DNA of 64,000 nucleotides, taken from Candidatus Rifleibacteriota bacterium. GTDB taxonomy: Bacteria > Muiribacteriota > Ozemobacteria > Ozemobacterales > Ozemobacteraceae. Location of the stretch: the NCBI GenBank assembly GCA_012517355.1, contig JAAYVD010000025.1, positions 1 through 64,000 on the forward strand, in the 5' to 3' direction. This document shows, in pieces, positions 5,677 through 47,171 of the stretch (its first letter is position 1; each line of letters begins with the position of its first letter). The position numbers and the translations under genes were made by a program. The notes beneath the pieces were generated by a model. That model saw only the letters and a program-made list of their open reading frames with translations, did not search any database and was not told the DNA's origin.

Positions 5677-6045
5677 ATGGATAAGACCCAGATCCTCGAA
5701 GCCATCGAGAAAATGACCGTCCTCGAACTGTCCGAGCTCGTCAAGGCGATGGAAGACAAGTTTGGCGTCACCGCCGCCGCCCCCATGGCCATGGCCATGC
5801 CGATGGCCGGCCCCGCCGCCGCCGCCGCCGAGAAGACCGAGTTCGACGTCGTCCTCGAAGCCGCCGGCGCCAACAAGATCAACGTCATCAAGGTCGTGCG
5901 CGAGCTGACCGGCCTGGGCCTGAAGGAAGCCAAGGACCTCGTCGAGGCCGCTCCCAAGCCCGTCAAGGAAGGCATCGCCAAGGCCGACGCCGAGGCCATG
6001 AAGAAGAAGCTCGAAGAGGCCGGCGCCAAGGCCTCCCTCAAGTAA
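5677..6045 (+). CDS. rplL: 50S ribosomal protein L7/L12
   Basis: 122 residues. The N-terminal dimerisation helices ([20 protein letters not shown]) are followed by the flexible Ala-rich hinge. The C-terminal factor-binding domain carries [20 protein letters not shown] and the [11 protein letters not shown] helix. AAGGAG at 5658-5663 precedes the ATG. A strong hairpin follows, and rpoB does not come next, unlike most bacteria. Confidence 0.98.
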
Positions 6046-6068
6046 ACCAGCTCTCCCAGCCGGTTTTC

Positions 6069-6105
6069 ACCGCCCCGCCCCGGTCCGCCGGGAGCGGGGC
6101 GGTTC
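6069..6105 (+). terminator. hairpin after rplL
   Basis: ACCGCCCCG (6069-6077) pairs with CGGGGCGGT (6095-6103), with a further small stem in the loop, followed by TTCCCTTT. It would end the tRNA-tuf-rplL unit. The next gene is on the opposite strand. Confidence 0.65.
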
Positions 6106-6119
6106 CCTTTGCCGCCCGG

Positions 6120-6854
6120 TCACCCCCGCCCCAGGCTCCTCAGCCAACGCCAGAGACGGGTCCAGACACCTGCCGGCGGGTTGACCAGGTTCTTCACCAC
6201 CCGCAGGTCCTGCCCTTCCGTCACCAGGGCGAACCCCTTCCAGCTTTCGGCCAGACCCCAGTAGGAAACCCCTTCCTGGTCCCGCTCGAACCACCGGTGG
6301 TGATGACCGAACACCCAGTGTCGCGGCCGCAGGTGGGCGGCGATCTCCCGGCCCCGCGGAAAGCCGGGGGCCCCGTAATGGCCGAACCCGGGGGCATTGG
6401 TCACCCCGATCCCGCGGGGACAATCGTGGCTGAGGATCACATCGACCGACCCCGCCGGATGGGCGAGGCAGGCCTCGATGTCCTGGGGCCTGATCTCGCA
6501 GCCCATCGGAGTGGTCATCGCGTCCATGTAGGCGGCCCCACCCAGGGCCAGGATCCGGACCCCGGCCAGGCAGTGGACGCTGGCCCGCGGCAGGTGGGTG
6601 AAACAGTCACGGTACTGGTCGACCAGGTCGGCGAAAGCGCCGAACTCCTCGTGGTTTCCCTCGAGGAAGGAGACCGGCCGCGCGAACCGCCGCCCCTGCC
6701 GCCGGAAGTAGTCTTGCAGCGTGTGGGCGAACAATCCGAAATCCCCCAGAACCACCACCTGGGTGACCGGACGACCCGTCTCCCGCTCGGCGACCGCGAC
6801 CTGCTCGTCGATGAGGTGATACTGGCAGTGGACGTCGGTGATCAGCAGGAGCAT
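6120..6854 (-). CDS. calcineurin-like metallophosphoesterase
   Basis: 244-residue cytoplasmic metallophosphoesterase. All five metal-ligand motifs are present in order: DVH near the N-terminus (LLITDVHCQYH), GDFG, GNHE (LEGNHEEFG), SHD (ILSHDCPRG) and GHHH (VFGHHHRWF). No signal peptide. The substrate cannot be told from sequence. It is the last gene of a minus-strand series and starts 16 bp after the sensor gene, so it is probably cotranscribed with the symporter genes. It converges on the rplL end. Confidence 0.88.
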   Translation of the reverse strand: MLLLITDVHCQYHLIDEQVAVAERETGRPVTQVVVLGDFGLFAHTLQDYFRRQGRRFARPVSFLEGNHEEFGAFADLVDQYRDCFTHLPRASVHCLAGVRILALGGAAYMDAMTTPMGCEIRPQDIEACLAHPAGSVDVILSHDCPRGIGVTNAPGFGHYGAPGFPRGREIAAHLRPRHWVFGHHHRWFERDQEGVSYWGLAESWKGFALVTEGQDLRVVKNLVNPPAGVWTRLWRWLRSLGRG

Positions 6855-6870
6855 GCGGAAGATCCGGGTC

Positions 6871-9522
6871 TCAGACCTGTTGCATCATGGACCCGGTGAA
6901 ATCGAAGCTCAGCTTCACCTGGAAATCCTTGATCTGGGCCAGCACCTCTTTCAGCATCTTCTGGTCCATCGAGGTCAGGGCTTGCGGCTCGACGTAGTTG
7001 TCGGGCGCCCGTTCCGCCGCCAGAGCGCGGATCTGGCCGTCGATCCGCAGCCGCATCAGGAAATCGTAGGCCTGGATCATCTCGCCGCAACTGCCCCGGC
7101 TCAGCACTCCGGCTTCGGTCAGGGCCCGCAGCCGGTCGTGGGTGTTGGTCTCGGCGAGCCCGTGCTTGAGGGCGTAGATGCGCGCGAAATCGACGATCAG
7201 GGCCATCACCCCCTTGATGTCGAACACCTGCCGGTCGGGCACCGCCGGATCGAACAGGAAGTTCCCGAACAGCCCGAGCGGGGGCTGGAACAGCAGCACG
7301 TTGCGGGCGAGCAGGAAGAAGAACCGCGGCTCGGCGGCCAGCGCGGCGGCGAGGGCCGGCCGCAACGCCTCCACCAGGCGGGCGTCGCCGGCCGCCGCCC
7401 GAAAGTCGAAGAAGATCTTGGTCTGCAACAGGTCTTCCGCTTCGGAGGTGCTGATCCACCGTCCGAAATGGGCTTTCCACCCGGCCAAGGGCTGGCACCA
7501 GTCGGGATTGCTGGCCATCACCTTCCCCTCGCAGAGCGCGTAGCCGCAGGCCGCCAGCTGCCCGCAGACCTCGCGGCCCAGGGCCAGGAAATACTCCCGC
7601 GCCGGCCCTTCCCGGTCGGCGGGCAGGTCGTCGAAAACGATGGCGTTGTCCTGGTCGGTCTTCAGCGTCTGCTCCAGCCGGCCGCTGCTGCCCAGCACCA
7701 TGAACGCCCAGGCGGCGGGCGGGGGTCCGAGCCGGGCGGTGGCCAGCCGGATGGCCTGGTGCAGAACGACATCCGCATTCCGGGTGACGAGGTGGTTGAT
7801 GCCGGCCGGCGGCAGACCGCACCCGGCCAGCACGCCGGCCATGCCGAACAGGCGACGGTTGGAGGCGGCCAGCTCCTCGCCCGTGGTGGCCCGCTCGAGG
7901 TCCTTCTGCAGAAGCACGGGCGAATACCGCTGCGCCTGCGCCAGGTGCCGCTCGGTCAACAGGCCGACCGCCCGGCCCGCCGGATCGGTCACCACCACCG
8001 GAGCGAACCCGGCCCGCTCCATCGCCAGAAACCCCTCGTAGACCGGCGCCGTATCCCGCAAGGTCGCCACGACGGGGGAGCAGATCTCCCCCGCGGGCCG
8101 GTGGAGACGGCTTTCCCAGTCAGACTGCAGGAGGTCCCCCGGCGTGACCAGTCCGATCACCCCGCCCGCCTCGTCCCGGACGAGGGCGGGAAGGGCAATC
8201 CCGACGCCAGCCGTGGCCAATCGCGGAGCCAGGGGTTCGGCCGCACCCAGAAGCCGGGACGGGGCCAGGACGGACCCCTGGTCAGGCACGGAACCTTCGC
8301 CCCCGACCTTCTGTTCCCCGCGCCCCCGCACCGCCGCGGGAGCCCTTCCGACGACCGATGGACAGGATCCTGGGGGGAACGGGCGTTCCTCCCGCAGGAG
8401 CTGGCCCACCGGCTGGTGCAGGAACTGCAACGCCGCCTGCATCTCGGCGAGCAGGCGTTCCTGGCCGACCTCCCGTTCCCGCTGCCGGGTGATGTCGGAG
8501 GCCACCGCCACCACGCCAGGCTTGTCGAACAGGGTCAGTCGCGACAGGGAGACGGTGACGTCCTTCCCGCCCCCTCCCGGCAGACGCAGCCGGGTCTCAA
8601 ACCGGGCGGGGACCGCCTCACCCTGCAGCAGGCGCCGCCAGAACGGCCCTCCGGCCGCCTTCTCCTCGGGGGCGGGCTCGAACAGGTCGTCGAGGGTGCG
8701 ACCGCGCAGGTCCTCGCTGCCGCACCCGAGCAGGGCGAGCATGGCCTGGTTGGCATACAGGGTCTCGCCGCCGATGGCCAGCACGATGCATTCCCCCGAT
8801 GCCTCGACCAGGGTGCGGTACTTCTCCTCGCTGTGGCGCAGGGCCTGTTCGGCCAGCCGGCGTTTCCGTTCGACCACCAGGCTGTCCCACAGGAAGAAGA
8901 ACAGCAGGAACGAGGCCAGCAGCAGGATGCCCAGCGACAGGATCATCAGCTGCTGCCTCGCCCCACGGATCTCCTGCTGGAGGTCCTCGAGGTAGACGCC
9001 CGTCCCGATCAGCCAGCCCCAGGGCTCGAACGCCTTGACATACGACAGTTTGGGAACGATGCGGGTCGCATCGTCCTTCCACTGCCAGCGGTAGTTGAGA
9101 TACCCCGCCCCGTGCTCCTTGACGATCTTCACGGCCTCGACGAACAGCCGCTTGCCGTCGGGGTCGGTGAAGGTGGAGAGGTCCTTGCCGTCGAGGTCGG
9201 AGCGGTAGGGGTGGACCACCATGCGCGGCTGCAGATCGTTGATCCAGAAGTAGTCCTTCATCTGCTGACCGTAATGCAGGTTGCGGATCTGCGCCACCGC
9301 CTGCGCCTGGGCGTCCGGCCGGGGGAGCAGGCCGGCCTTCTCGTCGCCGTGGAACTTGGCCAGGATGTTCCAGGCCGAGTTGGTCAGCTCGCGGATCATC
9401 TCCCGCTTCTGGTCCATGATGCTGCGTTCCAGGGTCGGGATGATGATGAAGAAGATGGAGACGAAGAACAGGGAAATGGTCAACAGGGTGATGAATACGG
9501 CCCGGACGGCAAACGAACGCAT
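6871..9522 (-). CDS. Cache-PAS-CBS-nucleotidyltransferase (DUF294) sensor protein
   Basis: 883 residues from the ATG at 9522, preceded by GGAG. An N-terminal transmembrane helix (about 7-29) leads to an extracytoplasmic Cache-type domain (about 35-190; WGWLIGTGVYLEDL is typical). A second membrane helix (about 195-215) and a PAS domain (about 235-330) follow. Next come a pair of CBS-like segments (about 430-560) and a GlnD-like nucleotidyltransferase/DUF294 module with LGSSGRLEQTLKTDQDNA, then its C-terminal helical domain. CBS-DUF294 proteins often neighbour acetate/SSS symporters. Here the symporter is directly upstream, suggesting the protein senses an external organic acid and tunes uptake. 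Fusion of a Cache/PAS sensor to this module is unusual. A longer in-frame ORF upstream is only a shadow of the symporter gene. Confidence 0.82.
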   Translation of the reverse strand: MRSFAVRAVFITLLTISLFFVSIFFIIIPTLERSIMDQKREMIRELTNSAWNILAKFHGDEKAGLLPRPDAQAQAVAQIRNLHYGQQMKDYFWINDLQPRMVVHPYRSDLDGKDLSTFTDPDGKRLFVEAVKIVKEHGAGYLNYRWQWKDDATRIVPKLSYVKAFEPWGWLIGTGVYLEDLQQEIRGARQQLMILSLGILLLASFLLFFFLWDSLVVERKRRLAEQALRHSEEKYRTLVEASGECIVLAIGGETLYANQAMLALLGCGSEDLRGRTLDDLFEPAPEEKAAGGPFWRRLLQGEAVPARFETRLRLPGGGGKDVTVSLSRLTLFDKPGVVAVASDITRQREREVGQERLLAEMQAALQFLHQPVGQLLREERPFPPGSCPSVVGRAPAAVRGRGEQKVGGEGSVPDQGSVLAPSRLLGAAEPLAPRLATAGVGIALPALVRDEAGGVIGLVTPGDLLQSDWESRLHRPAGEICSPVVATLRDTAPVYEGFLAMERAGFAPVVVTDPAGRAVGLLTERHLAQAQRYSPVLLQKDLERATTGEELAASNRRLFGMAGVLAGCGLPPAGINHLVTRNADVVLHQAIRLATARLGPPPAAWAFMVLGSSGRLEQTLKTDQDNAIVFDDLPADREGPAREYFLALGREVCGQLAACGYALCEGKVMASNPDWCQPLAGWKAHFGRWISTSEAEDLLQTKIFFDFRAAAGDARLVEALRPALAAALAAEPRFFFLLARNVLLFQPPLGLFGNFLFDPAVPDRQVFDIKGVMALIVDFARIYALKHGLAETNTHDRLRALTEAGVLSRGSCGEMIQAYDFLMRLRIDGQIRALAAERAPDNYVEPQALTSMDQKMLKEVLAQIKDFQVKLSFDFTGSMMQQV

Positions 9523-38601: not shown

Positions 38602-41600
38602 TCAGACCACCTTGAAAACCTGAACCTCCAGGCTTTTGCCCTTGATGGCCACCTCTCCCAGGGCCTGGAGGGCAATCCCCTGGCCCCGGGCCCACCCTTC
38701 CACGGCGGCCCGGGTCGGGGCATCCACCAGGATGCCGCCGCCCCTCTCCTTGCCGGCCAGGTCGCACAGGCGGGAGGCCAGGTTGACCGGGTCGCCGATC
38801 ACGGTCTGTTCGAGCCGCACCTCGGGCACGCCAAGGATGCCCGACAGGACAGCCCCCTCCACTACGCCTATTCCCAGAGGTCCTGGCAGTACCGTCGCCG
38901 CTTTCTTCTCCGGCTGAAGGCCGGCCGGCCCCCCGACCGACGTGGCGGGTTCCATGGCCTGAGAGGGGTCCGGGGGCGAAGCCTCCCTCTCCCTCATCCA
39001 TCGGACCATGGCACGGGCGGCGGCCAGGGCTCCGGCCACCGCCCGGTCGCCTCCGGACTCTCCGGGTGCGGGGAAAAAGACCGCCAGGACCCGGTCGCCG
39101 ATGAATTTGTCGATTTCCCCGCCTTCCCGGCGGACGATTCTCGACATCGCCTCGAGATAGCGGTTCAGGTCGTCCACCAGGGATTCGGCGGGGCGGGTCG
39201 CCAGGGCATTCTTGAACCCTGCCAGCCCGGCGAACAGGATGACCGCCTGACGGCGCTCGCCCGCCCCGGACCGACGACGACGGGTTCCGTCGCGCACCGC
39301 CTCCCGCACCGACTCCGACACGAACCGCCGCAGGAGCCGGCCTTCCTGCACGCCCTGCACCATGGTATTGAAGGCCTGGGCGAGGAACCCGAACTCATCA
39401 TACCGGTCGATCCGGACCCGCACCTGGAAATTCCCGCGCATGACCTCCCGCGCCCCTTCCGACAGCGATTCCAACGGGTCGAGCACCCGCCGTGCCACCC
39501 CCAGGCCCAGCACCAGGGCCGCCCCCACCAGCAGGGCAAGGAAATCGAGGCGCCCGCGGATCTCCGCCATGGCCTGCGTCCGCGCCTTTCCCAGAGACGC
39601 CCCGACCTGGAAGATGAAGTTCCTGATCCGTTCCCCGGTCGCCGCCACCCGGAGTTCCTGCGATTCGCCCCGGCCCACGACCTCCCACCAGGTTCCGCCC
39701 GCGGCCAGGGCCAGGGCGGCCAGTTCGCCATGGCGCGGAGTGCCATAGGCGTAGGTCTCGTTGATCTTGAAGTCACTGCCGTCGTAGCGGATGACCCAGA
39801 ACGGCGGCGAGAGAAACACCGACGGCCGGTCGAGAAAGGAGACCCGGAACCGGGCCTCGTGCGTACCGGCCGCCTCACCCACCTTCCTCCACAGGGTGAA
39901 CAGGTGGAAGGCTTCGCTTTCCCGTTCCCAGTTGGCCTGCAGGATCGCCCGGGGGGTGCCCTGGATCCAGACGTGGTCCCGATAGATGGCGTTCTGCCGG
40001 GCGCCCAGCACCTGGATCTGGAGGGCCCGGGGGGCATACATCAGGTTGGCATAGTAGGCGGGCGGAGCCAGTTGCAGGAGGAAATCCCGCAGCTCCTCCT
40101 CCTGGTATCTCCGGGTGATGAGGAGGGCCTCGTCCCTGGGCGCGGATGCCCCCCCGCCGGAAGGGAGCAAGGGCTCGAGATCGGCCATCATGGCCCCCGT
40201 CAACAACCGCCAGAACGTCGCCGCCCGGGCCTGGCCCTCGGGGAGGGACGGGTAGGAACACCACCAGTCGCCGACCCCGAACAGGTTCACTCCGCCCACA
40301 TCCACTCCATGCCGGAACGCTGCGGCCAGGGCCATCTGCAGGGCCGACACCCCTTCCGCCCCGTCCGGGCGGGCCGGCCCCGACACCCGGGCGATGACCT
40401 GGCGCAGCACCGGGTGATGGGAAAGGGTATCCAGGCACCTTCCCATCCAGCCCGTGTAGAGCTCCCCGCCTTCGTCGATCCGCCGCACCAGGGAACGCAG
40501 GCGGTTCCTCTCCTCGACCAGCAGCCGGACCTGGTTTTCCTGCAACCGGCGGCCCAGGCCGGCCACCGCGACCAGCGAGGCGGGCAGGAACAACAGGAGG
40601 AAACCGCCCACCAACTGCCCACGCAGGGAGGGCACCGGCACCGTTCGGAAGATCACGAGGTGGGCCAGCAGCAGGATGGTCAGGCATACCCAGGCCTGCG
40701 TCACCACCTGGAGAAGCAGCCGGGGCAGCCGGGCCGGGCCCGCCGCCCGCGTCAGGCGCCGGATGATCCGGAACGGTCGGGAAACCTCCCCTGCCAGCAT
40801 CCCCTGCGCCTCCAGCCGGGTTTCCGGCCCCGGCCCGGCACCCCGCACCGACCCGCCTGCGGCCGGTGAAGGCCCCCCTGCCGTACGCCGATCGGAAGTT
40901 CCACCCAACCCTCTGCGGCGGGGAGGGGGCATGGTCGACATCGGCCTGGTCGGGGTCATCCCTTTCCCCAGGAAAATCTCGGCCCCGCGCCGGCGGAAAT
41001 TCCGCCGCAGGCTCGTCATTCCCTGGTCGAAGGTGAGATCGGTCTGGGGAAGGGCCACCACCACGTGGCCCAGCAGGTGGTTCCAATGCCCCCGCAGGTC
41101 GGCGTTCCAGTCGGTCTCGTCCATCCGGTCCCGTGCCCCCGACTGGTCGAACCCGGCCTCGAAGAACGGCTCCCAGAACAAAACCCCTCCCAGGCCGGCC
41201 AGGGCCGAATCGGCGAATCGTGCATACCGGCCGCGGACGAACTCGTCCCAGTTTCCTGCCAGCACCCCGGCCTGGATCAGGACCCGGGCCTTCCAGTCCC
41301 CTTCGTTACCCATCGTGACCCGGCACAAAGTCCCGGTGAAGTGGGAAATGACCGCCTCGACCCCCCTTGCCTGGAGGGGCCCGACCGCCGCGATGCCGGA
41401 AGGGCTTCCCCTTTGCCGCCACGGATGGCGGCGCGAAACGCCCGCTTCGCGCATCGCCAGGGGGCCGTCCTCGGCGAACAGGCGGGCGGCCCAACAGTCG
41501 GGGCCGACCTGCTGGGGATCGAGGTAGGGCTGGTGCTCGAGCACCGCCCAATGCAACCGGGGAAACCTCCTCTGCCAGGCCTGCAGGGTGCGGGCCAGGG

Positions 41601-44600
41601 CGGCCAGCAGCATCGTCGTATCGGCCGAGGCGGGAAGGCGGAGGCGCGTTTCCTGCAGGGACCGGCGCAGATCGAGGGCGATCTCGGCATCGGGAACCAG
41701 GCCGGCGCCGGCCAGCATCAGATCACGCGACAGGCGGCCCCGCTCCAGCAGGATCTCCTTTTCCCTCCAGTCGTCCTGGAGATGCCGGCCGCCCCCGGCG
41801 GCCAGGCCGAACACCCCCAACCACACCCCCCCCGCCAGAACGGCCGCCACCCACTTCCCCCACCGCGTCTCCCCATAACCTGCCACCACGGTCCGGGGGA
41901 CGGAGCCGACCGACACGATGTCGGCCATACCCCTTTGCCGCCACGGATGGCGGTGCGAAACGCCAGTTTCGCGCACCGCAAAGGGGCCCTCCCCCGGACC
42001 GTCCTGATCGGCAGGGCCTGTCGTCGGGAGGGACCCGACCGCCCCCCCTCCCGCCGCGGCCGCCAACGCCCCCGACGATGGCGGATCGACGGTGGTCACC
42101 CCGGCTTCCCAGGCGTCCGGTTCCCCCGCCACCGGGGTCCAGGCGGCCACCGCTTCGCCCAGGGCCCCCCGGACCCGGCCGGACACGACGATGGGAACCT
42201 GGCGGGCCTTCTTCGAGGCCCCTTCCAGGGCCGCCGCCTCGGCGATCGGGTCGCCCAGCAGAGAGAAGTCGAGCCGCACCTCGGGATCCCCCAGCACGCC
42301 GGTCAGGGCCTCCCCTGCCTGGATGCCGATGCCGATGCGGTAGGGGAAGACCCCCGCCCCCCGACGTTCCTCCTGGATCCCCTCGTGGGCCGCCAGCATG
42401 GCCCGGGCGGCCCCCAGGGCGGCCAGGGTCGGGGAAGGCGGGGTCCCCTCGAGGAAGACGGCCTGGATGGCATCGCCGATGAACCGGTCGACCACCCCCC
42501 CGTGGGCGTGGATGGCGGCGGTCATCGCCTGGAGATGGCGGTTGAGGGCCAGGAACACCCGTTCGGGCGGATGCGCCTCGCTGATCGTCGTGAACTCCCG
42601 GATGTCCGACACCAGCACCACCACCGGCCGCCGGCTGCCGCGCACGGCCTGGTCGAGTTCCCCGGCCCGCAAGGCCTTCCGCAGCTGCGGGGAGACGAAA
42701 TCCTGCAGACGGACCTTCTCCCGCAGCCAGGCGGTCATGGCGTCGAGCGTGCGCATCGTCTGGCCCAGTTCGTCGCCCCGGTCGCTGGCCAGGCGGAAAT
42801 CCAGATCCTGCATGATGATCCGCTGCAATCCCGCCGTCATCGCCCCGACCGGCCGGACCAGGCGCCGGATCAGCCACCAGCCGAGACCGGCCATCATGCC
42901 CAGGATTCCCCCGAGGAGGGCCAGCAGGGCCAGACGCTCGGCCTGCAGGCGATCCCGGACGGCCCGCAGACTGAGACGCGCGACCACCGTCATGTCGGGA
43001 AGGGCGGGAGTGGAGGACACCATGACGAGATGCCGGCCGCCAGGCGGGGAGAGGAAACGGGTGGTTCCCGTGTAGATCCGGTTCAGGCGTGCCAGTTCGT
43101 CGGCGCCGGCGACCGTGGTGGCCAGGCACCGCTGGAGGCGGCCGTGGGCCCGGAAAACGGCGAGGTCGCAGCCGTATTCCCGGGCCAGGCGGGGGACCGT
43201 CCGGCGCAGATCCTCGGCGAACGAGGGGATGGGATCCCAGATGGCACCGAGCAGGAAGCGGACGCGGGTGCCGATGTGCACCCGCCGCAGTGAGACCGAA
43301 AACCGCTCATCCCCCACCTCGAGGGTGTTCAGCTGGGTCTCCTGCTCAACCCGCGCGAAGGCGTGGGGTGGCATCAGGGAGTTCAACAGGGCCCGGGTGG
43401 CGTTGGAAAAAGAGGCGACCGGGAACTCACGACCCAGCGCAGGGTCGTTCCTGACCAGGTTTTCCTCCCCCTGGTGGCCGATCAGCTCGAGCATCGGCTC
43501 CACCAGTTCGTGGGGGAGACCGAGCGAATCGACCTTCCGTCGGAACCCGCCCGGCCCCATGACCAGTACCCCCCCCTTGTCCCCGCGCCGCGGGAACAGC
43601 TGCCGGTGGGCGGCGGCCAACGGCCCGGTCCCCGGGTCGTCGAGCCGCTGCATGGTCGAGAACTCCTCCCCGAGGCCCGGCCGGGCCGCGAGCGCACCCA
43701 GGTTCGCCGCGAACTCCCCCAGGCCGGCCGACCATTTCCCCTCGATCGCCTGGCCGACCCGGGTCAACTCCTGCCGGGCCTGTTCGAGGAGGTTCGCTTC
43801 GAGATCGGCCCGGATCCGTTCGCCCCCTTCCAGGAGGAGGAGACAGGGAATGGCCGCCAGCAGGGCGAGCCACAGGGCCATCTGCACCCGGAAGCCGGGC
43901 GTGGGAAGGTCGCCGAACCACCAGGTGCGCACCAGGACCAGGACCCAGAACGCAAGCCAGACCCCCCTGGCCACGGCCGCCAGCGCGGCGGCCAGGGACG
44001 CGGGGGCCCGGGGGGCCGGGCCGACCAGCATCCCGACCGTCCCCAGGGAGGGTGGCAGGCGGACCAGGCGCCCCCATGTTCCGGCGGCCAGCTCCAGGCG
44101 TTCATCCAGGCGGTCGGCCAGCAGACGGGGATGGCCGAAGAACCAGGAGCTGCTGGCGTCCGGATAGATCGGGGCCTGGGAAGCCCCCCCCCTGAGGGAG
44201 CGGGGCGCTGGAACGGAGCCCATCTCACGGGACAGGAACCGGAGGACCTCCTGGCGACGTCCCCCCTGGATGTCCGGGTGAAGCCAGGCCCGGCGCCGGA
44301 CCGGCGGCAGGCCGGGCAGGTCGACGAAGAGCGGCCGGAGGCCCGGGGTGGGTCCGCGGCGCGACCAGCCGGCGAGGCAGAATCGAAGCCCCTGCCAGCG
44401 ATCGGTGGCCCGGATCGGCTGCACCAGCAGGAACATCCGGGTCAGCCCGCCCGGGGGCCCGATCAGTCCCCAGCTCATCAGGGCATAGGTCCCCTGGAAG
44501 ATGACGGAAAGGACCTTCCCCTCCTGGTCGGGTGCCAGCAGCGACAGGGTGAATCCCGGGCCGAAGAAGGCCCGGGCCCGGTTCCGCCAGAGGGGCCCCA

Positions 44601-45144
44601 GCAGGTCGTTGGTCTGCCGGCCGGCGCATCGCCCCACCTCGCGGAACAGGCGCGAGAAGAAGGAACCGAGCGAACGTTCCAGGCCCGGGCCCGTCAGCAG
44701 GACCGGGGGCCCCTCCAGCGAGGGGTCGGGGCAGGTGAAGACCCAGATCCGGGGCGCGGGAAGCCCCGGCAGGGCGGCCGCCCGCACCGCCCGCGCGAGG
44801 GTTTCCTCCTCGGCCGCGGGGTGACCGGGCCGGGGCGAGAGGGCCCGCCGCAACCGGTCGGCGGCCCGGGCGACCCAGAACTCCGGTTCCGCCTCGCGGC
44901 GCAGCCGGATTCCCAGCGGTTCGGTGCGGGCCTGCCAGTCGCGGACCTGCTCCCCGACCGCCCGCTGGGCCTGCTCGCGGGCGATCCCCTCCAGGAGCAC
45001 CAGGGGGATCAGGGACAGCAGCAGAGGCAGCAGCAGCCCGCGCACCCCGGCCCAGCCGGGCCGGGCGGGGCCCGCCGCGGCGGCATGGTGTTCCGTGGAC
45101 AGGCCCAGACCCTCCCTTCGTGGCGTGGTCTCCCACTGTAGCAC
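38602..45144 (-). CDS. giant two-headed class III nucleotidyl cyclase, M1-C1-M2-C2 layout
   Basis: 2180 codons without a stop. Half 1: membrane helix (about 35-54), large outer region, more helices (about 385-445), outer domain, helix plus HAMP (about 738-802), cyclase domain C1 (about 835-1010). Half 2: helix (about 1095-1117), helix pair (about 1478-1532), outer domain, helix plus HAMP (about 1865-1930), cyclase domain C2 (about 1962-2180). C1 keeps both metal aspartates, D847 (VSDIREFT) and D891 (FIGDAIQ), but the transition-state Asn and Arg are A968 and A972. C2 has G1973 for the first aspartate, keeps D2017, and has substrate Lys K2013, T2114, N2121 and R2125. The 44-residue spacing is the same in both. 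Together they would form one composite active site, probably making cAMP. Two R1 repeats lie in frame. The start (GTG 45144) is uncertain because no ribosome site is visible. Confidence 0.85.
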   Translation of the reverse strand: MLQWETTPRREGLGLSTEHHAAAAGPARPGWAGVRGLLLPLLLSLIPLVLLEGIAREQAQRAVGEQVRDWQARTEPLGIRLRREAEPEFWVARAADRLRRALSPRPGHPAAEEETLARAVRAAALPGLPAPRIWVFTCPDPSLEGPPVLLTGPGLERSLGSFFSRLFREVGRCAGRQTNDLLGPLWRNRARAFFGPGFTLSLLAPDQEGKVLSVIFQGTYALMSWGLIGPPGGLTRMFLLVQPIRATDRWQGLRFCLAGWSRRGPTPGLRPLFVDLPGLPPVRRRAWLHPDIQGGRRQEVLRFLSREMGSVPAPRSLRGGASQAPIYPDASSSWFFGHPRLLADRLDERLELAAGTWGRLVRLPPSLGTVGMLVGPAPRAPASLAAALAAVARGVWLAFWVLVLVRTWWFGDLPTPGFRVQMALWLALLAAIPCLLLLEGGERIRADLEANLLEQARQELTRVGQAIEGKWSAGLGEFAANLGALAARPGLGEEFSTMQRLDDPGTGPLAAAHRQLFPRRGDKGGVLVMGPGGFRRKVDSLGLPHELVEPMLELIGHQGEENLVRNDPALGREFPVASFSNATRALLNSLMPPHAFARVEQETQLNTLEVGDERFSVSLRRVHIGTRVRFLLGAIWDPIPSFAEDLRRTVPRLAREYGCDLAVFRAHGRLQRCLATTVAGADELARLNRIYTGTTRFLSPPGGRHLVMVSSTPALPDMTVVARLSLRAVRDRLQAERLALLALLGGILGMMAGLGWWLIRRLVRPVGAMTAGLQRIIMQDLDFRLASDRGDELGQTMRTLDAMTAWLREKVRLQDFVSPQLRKALRAGELDQAVRGSRRPVVVLVSDIREFTTISEAHPPERVFLALNRHLQAMTAAIHAHGGVVDRFIGDAIQAVFLEGTPPSPTLAALGAARAMLAAHEGIQEERRGAGVFPYRIGIGIQAGEALTGVLGDPEVRLDFSLLGDPIAEAAALEGASKKARQVPIVVSGRVRGALGEAVAAWTPVAGEPDAWEAGVTTVDPPSSGALAAAAGGGAVGSLPTTGPADQDGPGEGPFAVRETGVSHRHPWRQRGMADIVSVGSVPRTVVAGYGETRWGKWVAAVLAGGVWLGVFGLAAGGGRHLQDDWREKEILLERGRLSRDLMLAGAGLVPDAEIALDLRRSLQETRLRLPASADTTMLLAALARTLQAWQRRFPRLHWAVLEHQPYLDPQQVGPDCWAARLFAEDGPLAMREAGVSRRHPWRQRGSPSGIAAVGPLQARGVEAVISHFTGTLCRVTMGNEGDWKARVLIQAGVLAGNWDEFVRGRYARFADSALAGLGGVLFWEPFFEAGFDQSGARDRMDETDWNADLRGHWNHLLGHVVVALPQTDLTFDQGMTSLRRNFRRRGAEIFLGKGMTPTRPMSTMPPPRRRGLGGTSDRRTAGGPSPAAGGSVRGAGPGPETRLEAQGMLAGEVSRPFRIIRRLTRAAGPARLPRLLLQVVTQAWVCLTILLLAHLVIFRTVPVPSLRGQLVGGFLLLFLPASLVAVAGLGRRLQENQVRLLVEERNRLRSLVRRIDEGGELYTGWMGRCLDTLSHHPVLRQVIARVSGPARPDGAEGVSALQMALAAAFRHGVDVGGVNLFGVGDWWCSYPSLPEGQARAATFWRLLTGAMMADLEPLLPSGGGASAPRDEALLITRRYQEEELRDFLLQLAPPAYYANLMYAPRALQIQVLGARQNAIYRDHVWIQGTPRAILQANWERESEAFHLFTLWRKVGEAAGTHEARFRVSFLDRPSVFLSPPFWVIRYDGSDFKINETYAYGTPRHGELAALALAAGGTWWEVVGRGESQELRVAATGERIRNFIFQVGASLGKARTQAMAEIRGRLDFLALLVGAALVLGLGVARRVLDPLESLSEGAREVMRGNFQVRVRIDRYDEFGFLAQAFNTMVQGVQEGRLLRRFVSESVREAVRDGTRRRRSGAGERRQAVILFAGLAGFKNALATRPAESLVDDLNRYLEAMSRIVRREGGEIDKFIGDRVLAVFFPAPGESGGDRAVAGALAAARAMVRWMREREASPPDPSQAMEPATSVGGPAGLQPEKKAATVLPGPLGIGVVEGAVLSGILGVPEVRLEQTVIGDPVNLASRLCDLAGKERGGGILVDAPTRAAVEGWARGQGIALQALGEVAIKGKSLEVQVFKVV
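41381..41467 (-). repeat. palindromic repeat R1, copy B (in frame in cyclase gene)
   Basis: Intact R1 on the coding strand: GGCCCCCTGGCGATGCGCG, the GAAGCGGGCGTTTCGC arm, the CCGCCATCCGTGGCGG arm and CAAAGGGG. It adds about 29 residues (about 1227-1255) containing MREAGVSRRHPWRQRG to the outer loop of cyclase half 2 without breaking the frame. Confidence 0.88.
41905..41989 (-). repeat. palindromic repeat R1, copy C (in frame in cyclase gene)
   Basis: Intact R1, same orientation and reading frame as copy B. It encodes about 29 residues (about 1053-1081) containing VRETGVSHRHPWRQRG followed by ADIVSVGS, in the linker between cyclase domain C1 and the next membrane helix. The arms GCGAAAC-GTTTCGC, CCGCCATCCGTGGCGG and CCGACATCGTGTCGG are all present. 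Confidence 0.9.
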
Positions 45145-45185: not shown

Positions 45186-45224
45186 GAAAGGGAAAGACGG
45201 CATCGCCGTCCGTGGGAGGAAACC

Positions 45225-45923
45225 ATGCTCACCCCGGTGCGAACCACCCCGCCCCCCGCCTACCCGGGAGCCGCCCCGCAACGCCGGTTCTTCCACACCC
45301 TGGCGCTGTTCCTGCATGGGAAGGTCACCCTGCCCGTCTGCGTCTTCCTGGTGCTGTCCGCCGCCCAGGTCTTCGCCGAGTCGCCCCGGCCGGCCGGCCC
45401 CGCCGGGGGCGATGGCGGGAACCTGGTCGTCGCCCAGGTGCAGGAACCCGCCTGCCGCGGCAAGATCGCCCTCGACCCGCCACCCTGCAAGGGCGACGTG
45501 GCCATGCCCGAACCCCCACCCTGCTCGGGGGAGATCGCCCTGCCCGATCCCCCACCCTGCGCGGGGGTTCCGCGGCCCGACCCGTTCCCGCCCCAGCCCG
45601 AACCGGCTCCCGAGATCTCCCTGCGCGCCCTGATCGCCCGGCCACGCGACTTCGTCGACCGCCGGGTGCTGGTGCGGGGCATCCTGGGCCGGGCCGGCGA
45701 CGGCAGCCTGTTCGAGAATGGATATTACCTCTACATCGACCGCCCGCGCACCGCCGCCGGGGAGTTCTTCGGCTGCCCGCTGGTGGGCGGCTTCCCCGCC
45801 CCCGCCGAAGGCACCCCGGTCACCGTGACCGGCCGCGTCGTCCGGCGCCACGAAGGGCCGGGCGGGCGACGCCGGCCGGGCACCTACTACGTGCTGCAGA
45901 TCGAGAGCGTCTCCCGCCAGTGA
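45225..45923 (+). CDS. exported Cys-repeat protein with C-terminal OB-like domain
   Basis: 232 residues. A long N-terminus with one hydrophobic segment (VTLPVCVFLVLSAAQVFA) serves as signal peptide. Residues about 74-120 hold four cysteines spaced 11-12 apart in a repeat of the form PPC-x-G-(D/E)-(V/I)-A-(M/L)-P-(E/D)-P. The C-terminal 100 residues (ISLRALIARPRDFVDRRVLVRG... to YYVLQIESVS) look like an OB-type beta barrel. A radical SAM/SPASM gene follows after 7 bp, which makes the Cys repeats a candidate modification substrate, perhaps Cys-to-Asp/Glu thioethers. That link is inferred from adjacency only. The repeat is also visible in DNA as a 36-bp tandem. Confidence 0.7.
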   Translation: MLTPVRTTPPPAYPGAAPQRRFFHTLALFLHGKVTLPVCVFLVLSAAQVFAESPRPAGPAGGDGGNLVVAQVQEPACRGKIALDPPPCKGDVAMPEPPPCSGEIALPDPPPCAGVPRPDPFPPQPEPAPEISLRALIARPRDFVDRRVLVRGILGRAGDGSLFENGYYLYIDRPRTAAGEFFGCPLVGGFPAPAEGTPVTVTGRVVRRHEGPGGRRRPGTYYVLQIESVSRQ

Positions 45924-45930
45924 GGCCGCC

Positions 45931-47025
45931 ATCAAGCTCGCCATCCACCTGACCCACGACTGCAACCTGCGTTGCACCTACTGCTACGTGGGCCGCAAGT
46001 ACGGCCGGGCCATGGACCGCGCCACCGCCGAGGCCGCCGTGCGGTTCGGGTTCGCCCACAGCACCCGCACCGTCGACCTGTCGTTCTTCGGCGGGGAACC
46101 GCTGCTGGAAAAGGACCTGCTGCTCCACACCGCCGACTACGCCCTGGCCTGGCAGCGCGACCAGGCACCCGGCAAGCCGCTCCGGCTGTTCGTCACCACC
46201 AACGGCCTCGGTCTCGACGAGGCGTTCCTGCAGGAGGCCCGCCGCCGCGGCCTGATCGTCTCGCTCAGCCTCGACGGCCACGGCCGCGGGCACGACCTGA
46301 CCCGCACCCTGCCCGAGGGGGGAGGGTCGTTCGCCGCCCTCGAGCCGAAGTTTCCGGCCATCCTGGCCGTCTTTCCCTGGATCGAAGTGCTGGTCACCGT
46401 CACCCCCCGCAACCTGCCGTTCCTCGGCGAGGGGGTGGAAAAGCTCTACGCCTGCGGGTTCCGCAACTTCATCGTCGGCCCCAACTACGAGGAAGCCTGG
46501 GAAGAACCCGCCCTGCAGCGGCTGGAAGAGGAATACCGGCGGCTGGCCTCCTTTTACGAGGCCCGTTTCCGCGACGGACACTACATCTACCTCAGCCTGT
46601 TCGACACCAAGATCGCCGCCCACACCCGCACCCGGGGCGAGATCTGCTCCTGCTGCGACAAGAACGACGGCGAGATCGCGGTGGCCCCCTCGGGCAACAT
46701 CTACCCCTGCCTGCGGTTCGTCAAGGAGGACGCCGACCACGCCCTGGTGCTGGGCACCCTGGCCACCGGCCTCGACCGGAAGAAGCGGGCGAAGCTGATG
46801 CTCGAGGCCGGCCGGGAATGGCCCGAGTGCCTGGAATGCGCCTTCCGCGGCCGGTGTTTCCATTACTGCACCGCGGTCAACTTCAAGGTGACCGGGCGGT
46901 TCAACCAGCCCCCGGCCGTGCTGTGCCGCCAGGAGCAGGCGGCCATCCGGTGCGCCGACGAGGTGGCCGCCCGGCTGCACGCGGCCGGCAACCCGCTGTT
47001 CCACGAACGCTTCTACCGGAAGTGA
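45931..47025 (+). CDS. radical SAM/SPASM protein, non-standard start
   Basis: About 364 residues. Radical SAM cluster CNLRCTYCY lies at about residues 11-19; FFGGEPLL and SLDGHGRGHDL are the expected core motifs. The SPASM auxiliary-cluster region has CSCCDKNDGEIAVAPSGNIYPC and later ECLECAFRGRCFHYC. Such enzymes modify peptides or proteins. No ATG, GTG or TTG exists in frame between the upstream stop (45826-45828) and a GTG at 45988, which lies after the Cys motif. Homologs begin about where ATC 45931 is (ATC-Lys-Leu-Ala-Ile-His), with GAGG just before, so initiation at ATC is the simplest reading. A mutated ATG or base error is the alternative. It follows the Cys-repeat protein gene after 7 bp. 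Confidence 0.8.
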   Translation: MKLAIHLTHDCNLRCTYCYVGRKYGRAMDRATAEAAVRFGFAHSTRTVDLSFFGGEPLLEKDLLLHTADYALAWQRDQAPGKPLRLFVTTNGLGLDEAFLQEARRRGLIVSLSLDGHGRGHDLTRTLPEGGGSFAALEPKFPAILAVFPWIEVLVTVTPRNLPFLGEGVEKLYACGFRNFIVGPNYEEAWEEPALQRLEEEYRRLASFYEARFRDGHYIYLSLFDTKIAAHTRTRGEICSCCDKNDGEIAVAPSGNIYPCLRFVKEDADHALVLGTLATGLDRKKRAKLMLEAGREWPECLECAFRGRCFHYCTAVNFKVTGRFNQPPAVLCRQEQAAIRCADEVAARLHAAGNPLFHERFYRK

Positions 47026-47070: not shown

Positions 47071-47155
47071 GCCCGACCGACAGGATGTCGGCCACACCCC
47101 GTTGCCGCCACGAAGGGCGGCGCGAAACGCCCGTTTCGCGCACGGCAAAGGGGCT
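47071..47155 (-). repeat. palindromic repeat R1, copy D
   Basis: Intact R1 on the minus strand: CCCCTTTGCCGTGCGCG, then GCGAAACGGGCGTTTCGC, a slightly changed CCGCCCTTCGTGGCGG and CCGACATCCTGTCGG. It lies downstream of the radical SAM gene, just before the terminator-like hairpin. Confidence 0.92.
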
Positions 47156-47171
47156 GACCGGCCCGGAATGA

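Follow-up and report, generated by a model that had tools for sequence, protein, structure and literature searches.

A radical SAM/SPASM enzyme gene paired with an exported Cys-repeat protein in Riflebacteria: a candidate protein-sized substrate

Most known cases of radical SAM cross-linking concern small peptides. In the 64,000-nucleotide stretch of a Candidatus Rifleibacteriota genome analysed here (the window; contig JAAYVD010000025.1, positions 1 to 64,000), the gene for a signal-bearing protein with regularly spaced cysteines is followed by that of a radical SAM/SPASM enzyme, which raises the question of whether the enzyme modifies its neighbor's product and, if so, at which residues. A sequence-only reading of the locus had proposed that the cysteines of C-x-G-(D/E) repeats are joined by thioether bonds to the acidic residue that follows.

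The exported protein and the adjoining enzyme

The first protein of the pair was read as an exported protein with four cysteines at intervals of 11–12 residues, and its Cys residues, which lie in a Pro-rich region downstream of a signal-like segment, are indeed spaced by 11, 12 and 12 residues (Table 1). Alignment of the five homologous Riflebacteria proteins, which range from 232 to 329 aa, shows a shared N-terminal P-V...Y-P-G..P(R/K)(R/K) stretch (QRR in the window protein). Next come a hydrophobic signal segment and a Pro-rich linker, which differs in length among the homologs and has four or five C-x-G motifs; a C-terminal domain completes each protein. The signal helix is preceded by RR in 4 of the 5 homologs and by KK in copy a of genome G014, and 3 out of 26 partner proteins match the Tat model of NCBIfam. 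The signal of the window protein, which has no lipobox Cys at its end, is likely cleaved after VFA-51, judging by its sequence and the alignment. An AlphaFold2 model of the C-terminal domain, built from a three-sequence alignment, has the OB folds of SSB, the MCM N-domain and AspRS as its top PDB matches (Foldseek, E ~1e-3), which supports the OB-like domain that had been proposed to follow the repeats.

The second gene encodes a radical SAM/SPASM enzyme, as had been proposed: the CxxxCxxC motif and the full seven-Cys SPASM motif are present and conserved, with all seven SPASM cysteines invariant in a 21-sequence alignment, C313 and C332 kept at at least 90% across 43 homologs, and a Pfam Radical_SAM match of 45.5 bits. 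The proposed gap of 7 bp between the two ORFs holds only if translation starts at ATC 45931. The frame is open from 45829, after a stop at 45826, and contains no ATG, GTG or TTG before CxxxCxxC; its first GTG, at 45988, lies downstream of this motif. ATC 45931 agrees with the start of all orthologs and has GAGG 5 nt ahead. ATC is likewise the start codon of the G003 ortholog (L021, 10420), where GGAG stands 7 nt before it, and the orthologs in G007 and G014 start at ATG. Among loci with a placeable motif, a common start codon is absent only in the window and in the G003 copy L028. A degenerate or mis-called enzyme gene, considered for want of an ATG, was rejected given the ATC and GGAG of the G003 ortholog and the retention of all catalytic cysteines. 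AUC is a rarely used start codon; it is found here in two Riflebacteria genera, each time with a good Shine-Dalgarno site, and may act as a limit on expression.

The window also contains a dispersed element of ~60–75 nt with several inverted repeats (GCGCGAAACG..CGTTTCGCGC, CGACATC.GTGTCG). One copy follows the radical SAM gene, and two others lie in frame within a 2180-aa ORF, where they encode a peptide like RE(T/A)GVSRRHPWRQRG. This ORF is possibly two or three cyclase genes fused in one frame across repeat elements.

Table 1. Features of the gene pair and its surroundings, in window coordinates
Feature	Position	Strand	Basis
2180-aa ORF with two HAMP and two guanylate-cyclase stretches	38602-45144	-	
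Dispersed element copies	41408-41470, 41930-41992, 47097-47159		
Dispersed element copies, degenerate	55538, 56366, 59915	reverse	
GGGAGG, Shine-Dalgarno-like, of exported-protein gene	45214..45219	+	sequence
Exported Cys-repeat/OB protein, 232 aa, presumed substrate	45225..45923	+	homologs in G003, G007, G014
Pre-signal Y-P-G segment, residues 13-15, presumed recognition motif	45261..45269	+	invariant in 5/5 Riflebacteria homologs
RR and hydrophobic signal segment, residues 20-51	45282..45377	+	sequence, alignment
Pro-rich linker with four C-x-G motifs, Cys 77, 88, 100, 112	45450..45590	+	
C-terminal domain, predicted OB fold	45612..45920	+	AlphaFold2 pLDDT 77.5, Foldseek
GAGG, Shine-Dalgarno-like, of enzyme gene, overlapping stop of first ORF	45922..45925	+	sequence
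Radical SAM/SPASM enzyme, 364 aa, AUC start	45931..47025	+	AlphaFold2 pLDDT 88.2
CxxxCxxC SAM-cluster motif, Cys 11, 15, 18	45961..45984	+	invariant in 43 homologs
SPASM seven-Cys motif C242-x12-G-x4-C260, C300-x2-C303-x5-C309-x3-C313-x18-C332	46654..46926	+	

Co-inheritance and the Cys motif in Riflebacteria

A search for the same gene pair, suggested with the sequence-only reading, found both genes together in 4 of 39 genomes of the phylum (the window genome G000, G003, G007 and G014) and neither gene alone, with the enzyme counted at ≥57% identity (Fisher p = 1.2e-5, a descriptive value as the genomes are related). The two genes are adjacent in G000, G003 and G007, which represent three genera, and the genes flanking them vary. 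Chance adjacency was rejected on the basis of this co-occurrence. In G014, the enzyme gene is preceded by a remnant of the partner gene's 3′ part (15/29 identical, E = 1e-6) and two intact partner copies lie on other contigs, an arrangement compatible with one enzyme serving substrates in trans. More distant enzyme homologs within the phylum, in G037 (36%) and on contig C112 of G003 (31%), have no visible Cys-repeat partner; another, in G051 of a different phylum (31%), is part of a SCIFF-type system and was used as a positive control.

The window Cys sites read ACRGK, PCKGD, PCSGE and PCAGV, so that the C-x-G part of the proposed repeat is present at all four and the acidic residue after Gly at two. 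Across the five homologous proteins, C-x-G is kept at 21/21 linker cysteines, a conservation that exceeds chance, and Pro directly precedes Cys in 20 of these. C-x-G-(D/E) was rejected as a general rule, with Asp/Glu after Gly (Cys+3) in only 7/21 sites. More common is Asp/Glu at Cys-4 (13/21); at Cys+4 it is found in 0/21, and positions +4 to +6 are mainly hydrophobic. In 20,000 trials of random placement within the same linkers, 13 acidic residues were never reached at any upstream position, the repeats within a protein being non-independent. The resulting consensus is (D/E)-P-x-P-C-x-G-x-(V/I/M)-A-x-P. Because of the co-inheritance, the G014 remnant and this motif conservation, an enzyme–substrate relation between the two genes is very likely. 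The earlier suggestion that the SPASM enzyme acts on an exported substrate of protein size, not on a small RiPP, gains support from the co-occurrence, the adjacency and the remnant.

Enzyme relatives and their partners in other phyla

Scanning the contigs of GTDB genomes yielded 80 loci, including enzyme homologs at ~29–39% in Sumerlaeota, Myxococcota-type Deltaproteobacteria, Chitinivibrionia, Saprospiraceae, Latescibacterota, Planctomycetota, Spirochaetota, Kiritimatiellae and Fibrobacter. In the class to which G058 belongs, 43 of the 192 genomes contain it, and viral contigs yielded nothing beyond one weak match. In the enzyme tree, the four Riflebacteria sequences come together as a single clade (100/100), set off by a long branch (1.0); their grouping with a Myxococcota-rich clade is tentative, at a support of only 92/86.

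The genes adjoining these relatives repeatedly encode signal-bearing proteins of 100–560 aa, many with x-Y-P or x-F-P before the signal, as in PADYPTLDQVETDRRGFL (L031), HHPGYPALSDVTCGRRQFL (L039), NTPAYPSYLDKNP (L034), EEPTYPSVEDAGIDRRRFL (L130) and SARYPAGRW (L032). With crude gene calls, YP ahead of a hydrophobic segment was found in 16/33 enzyme neighbors vs. 9/145 distant ORFs (p = 4e-8). Several Cys-poor partners contain counterparts of the window motifs CKGDVAMPE and CSGEIALPD, namely VDGDMAIPE, IDGDIAEPE, IAGDMRAPE and LSGDVAEPE (L033), LAGDVEQPD and LAGAVQAPD (L031), LAGGMAIP (L030), LDGDVAIP (L134), LDGEIGVP (L130) and LAGDVAEP (L145). The pattern (C/L/I/V/M)-x-G-x-(V/I/M)-x-x-P occurs 2.18 times per 1000 aa in 36 non-Riflebacteria partners vs. 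0.095 in 667 background ORFs, making it ~20 times commoner in the partners; it restricts the residues after Gly and was framed with some partners already known. The first regex preceded loci L130–L147 and changed regexes gave the final rate, so its p-value is descriptive. The motif is present in only 9 of the 36 partners, and is absent from Saprospiraceae and several other groups.

The sequence-only reading implied that enzyme homologs should lie beside Cys-repeat proteins. This holds in part: outside Riflebacteria, exported neighbors are often present, and the Cys of their motif is mostly missing, which led us to reject a Cys-repeat partner as a universal feature and means that a thioether cannot be the shared chemistry of the enzyme group. 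Because several partners elsewhere have Leu/Ile/Val at the Cys position, Cys is a lineage variant of the motif, its Riflebacteria form. NCBIfam and Pfam contain no family for the partners and gave no convincing curated match beyond Tat signals, and a literature search found no earlier description.

Other types of neighbor were also observed. In Fibrobacter (L053, L057), related enzymes follow genes for lipoproteins, another type of exported partner, which begin with MKIEKKKISG, contain Ser-rich linkers and have C-termini like GASMVTTFERDDIEA. At L133, the gene after that of a related enzyme encodes an exported protein that has 17 Cys in its mature part along with a VPRYPTTC segment, a possible second Cys-based branch. 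The Myxococcota partner at L119/L048 contains a Gly-rich stretch in which (A/N)-x-PY(G/D/E) motifs recur, which may point to a separate type of modification. In the Spirochaetes locus L052 (positions 5837-7997), several exported proteins stand in a row before the enzyme, with the variants LLGEPVAMP, LAGKPAIP and LGGDIAYFP.

Candidate chemistry and known systems

Somewhat favored among the readings considered is that the cytosolic enzyme modifies the linker repeats of the exported protein before export, with one thioether per Cys the likeliest outcome in Riflebacteria. In the cytoplasm, the SPASM enzyme would recognize the P-x-Y-P-G segment that precedes the signal at the N-terminus and modify every repeat of the Pro-rich linker. 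Export and signal cleavage would then yield an envelope protein whose OB domain is preceded by a rigid stalk with local cross-links. A Cys thioether is probable, favored because of the strict Cys in Riflebacteria and the kinship of the enzyme with CteB and PapB. By positional conservation, the candidate acceptors are Asp/Glu at Cys-4 and Gly at Cys+2. PapB works on Cys-Xn-Asp with n = 0–6 and refuses the reversed order D-X3-C (PMC9413430), which counts against Asp/Glu at Cys-4 if the window enzyme is PapB-like; in CteA, the link joins Cys32 to Thr34, from i to i+2 (review PMC8326336).

More tentatively, the relatives may constitute an RRE-less, PapB/CteB-like SPASM class in several phyla, which would read Y/F-P before the signal and modify Phi-x-G-x-Phi-x-x-P, forming a Cys thioether in Riflebacteria and acting by Cys-free chemistry in the others. 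If so, several phyla would use radical SAM cross-linking in the making of envelope proteins, the substrate being recognized by a pre-signal segment, and the natural Cys and Cys-free versions of the motif would offer a direct test of how a SPASM enzyme switches between thioethers and other bonds.

The Leu, Ile and Val at the Cys position of the Myxococcota and Sumerlaeota partners could instead mean that the enzyme acts on residues common to the Cys-less partners, the Gly or aliphatic residues of Phi-x-G-x-Phi-x-x-P, by C–C bond formation, epimerization or desaturation, for example, with Cys secondary. The radical SAM enzyme TvgB, which makes cyclopropylglycine from the Val of TVGG repeats (PMC9062424), provides a precedent. 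We consider this unlikely, though not far-fetched, for the closest characterized enzymes form thioethers, and the strict retention of Cys in all 21 Riflebacteria repeats indicates a role for the thiol.

A thioether to the acceptor named in the sequence-only reading, the Asp/Glu following C-x-G as in PapB or QhpD, is improbable. The PapB model is the best NCBIfam match, and an acidic residue lies within PapB's range of n = 0–6 (PMC9413430) at 11/21 sites. However, the positions after C-x-G are mostly non-acidic, C-X3-D/E (the PapB rule) is found at none of the 21 sites, and some orthologous repeats have no reachable downstream acidic residue.

We give slightly less credence still to a role of the cysteines as envelope disulfides or metal ligands, with another substrate for the enzyme: there are several linker Cys per protein and envelope Cys often form disulfides, but the pair strictly co-occurs and is adjacent, and cytosolic SPASM enzymes usually adjoin their substrate gene. 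Excision of the linker as a small peptide, with the OB domain as follower of a RiPP precursor, is hardly credible, since the repeat core does come after an N-terminal segment but a Sec/Tat-type signal lies ahead of the repeats, the OB domain is conserved, and no protease or RiPP exporter adjoins the pair among the ORFs examined.

Several known systems bear comparison with the pair and with the preferred reading, modification of the linker before export. The rSAM/lipoprotein system (TIGR04133/TIGR04134 lipo_with_rSAM) pairs a radical SAM enzyme with an exported lipoprotein; TIGR04134 had 0 matches among 26 partners and 0 in the window genome, the latter in a search whose control matched nowhere. 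No PqqD/RRE domain is fused or adjacent to the window enzyme. The sole PqqD-type (RRE-like) match of the genome lies far from the pair, on contig C181 (L149, G000:C181:16555-16740), and perhaps belongs to another RiPP system.

The anaerobic sulfatase-maturating enzyme (TIGR03942, PDB 4K37), a SPASM enzyme with a protein-sized substrate, is the second-best fold match, but the window enzyme scores 74 bits against a cut-off of 349 and has no sulfatase partner. QhpD (TIGR03906), the quinohemoprotein amine dehydrogenase maturase, likewise has a protein subunit, not a RiPP, as its substrate and forms Cys-Asp/Glu thioethers in it; here the score is 95.6 bits against 453, and the partner has no match to QhpC-type subunits.

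The best NCBIfam model, PapB NF047865, gives 190.2 bits, far below its cut-off of 340, followed by CXXX-repeat maturase (132.6), nif11-type (129.9) and SCIFF (128.6 bits) models, all sub-cut-off. PapB and PapA (freyrasin, a ranthipeptide) resemble the window pair in combining a SPASM radical SAM enzyme with repeated Cys motifs in the substrate. Unlike PapA, the window substrate is a signal-bearing protein with an OB domain, and the small leader/core precursor of ranthipeptides is not seen among the Riflebacteria partners.

The SCIFF maturase CteB (TIGR03974, cut-off 425 bits) differs in its N-terminal ~98 residues, which the window enzyme lacks; the alignment begins only at CteB chain residue 99, so RiPP-type leader binding is not evident, and adjacent ORFs of ≥60 aa include no six-Cys SCIFF peptide. 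It is nevertheless CteB, which makes Cys thioethers, that comes closest to the window enzyme in both sequence and fold, being its closest solved structure (5WGG/5WHY; phmmer E = 1e-28, profile E = 2e-74) and matching its model with a Foldseek TM of 0.82.
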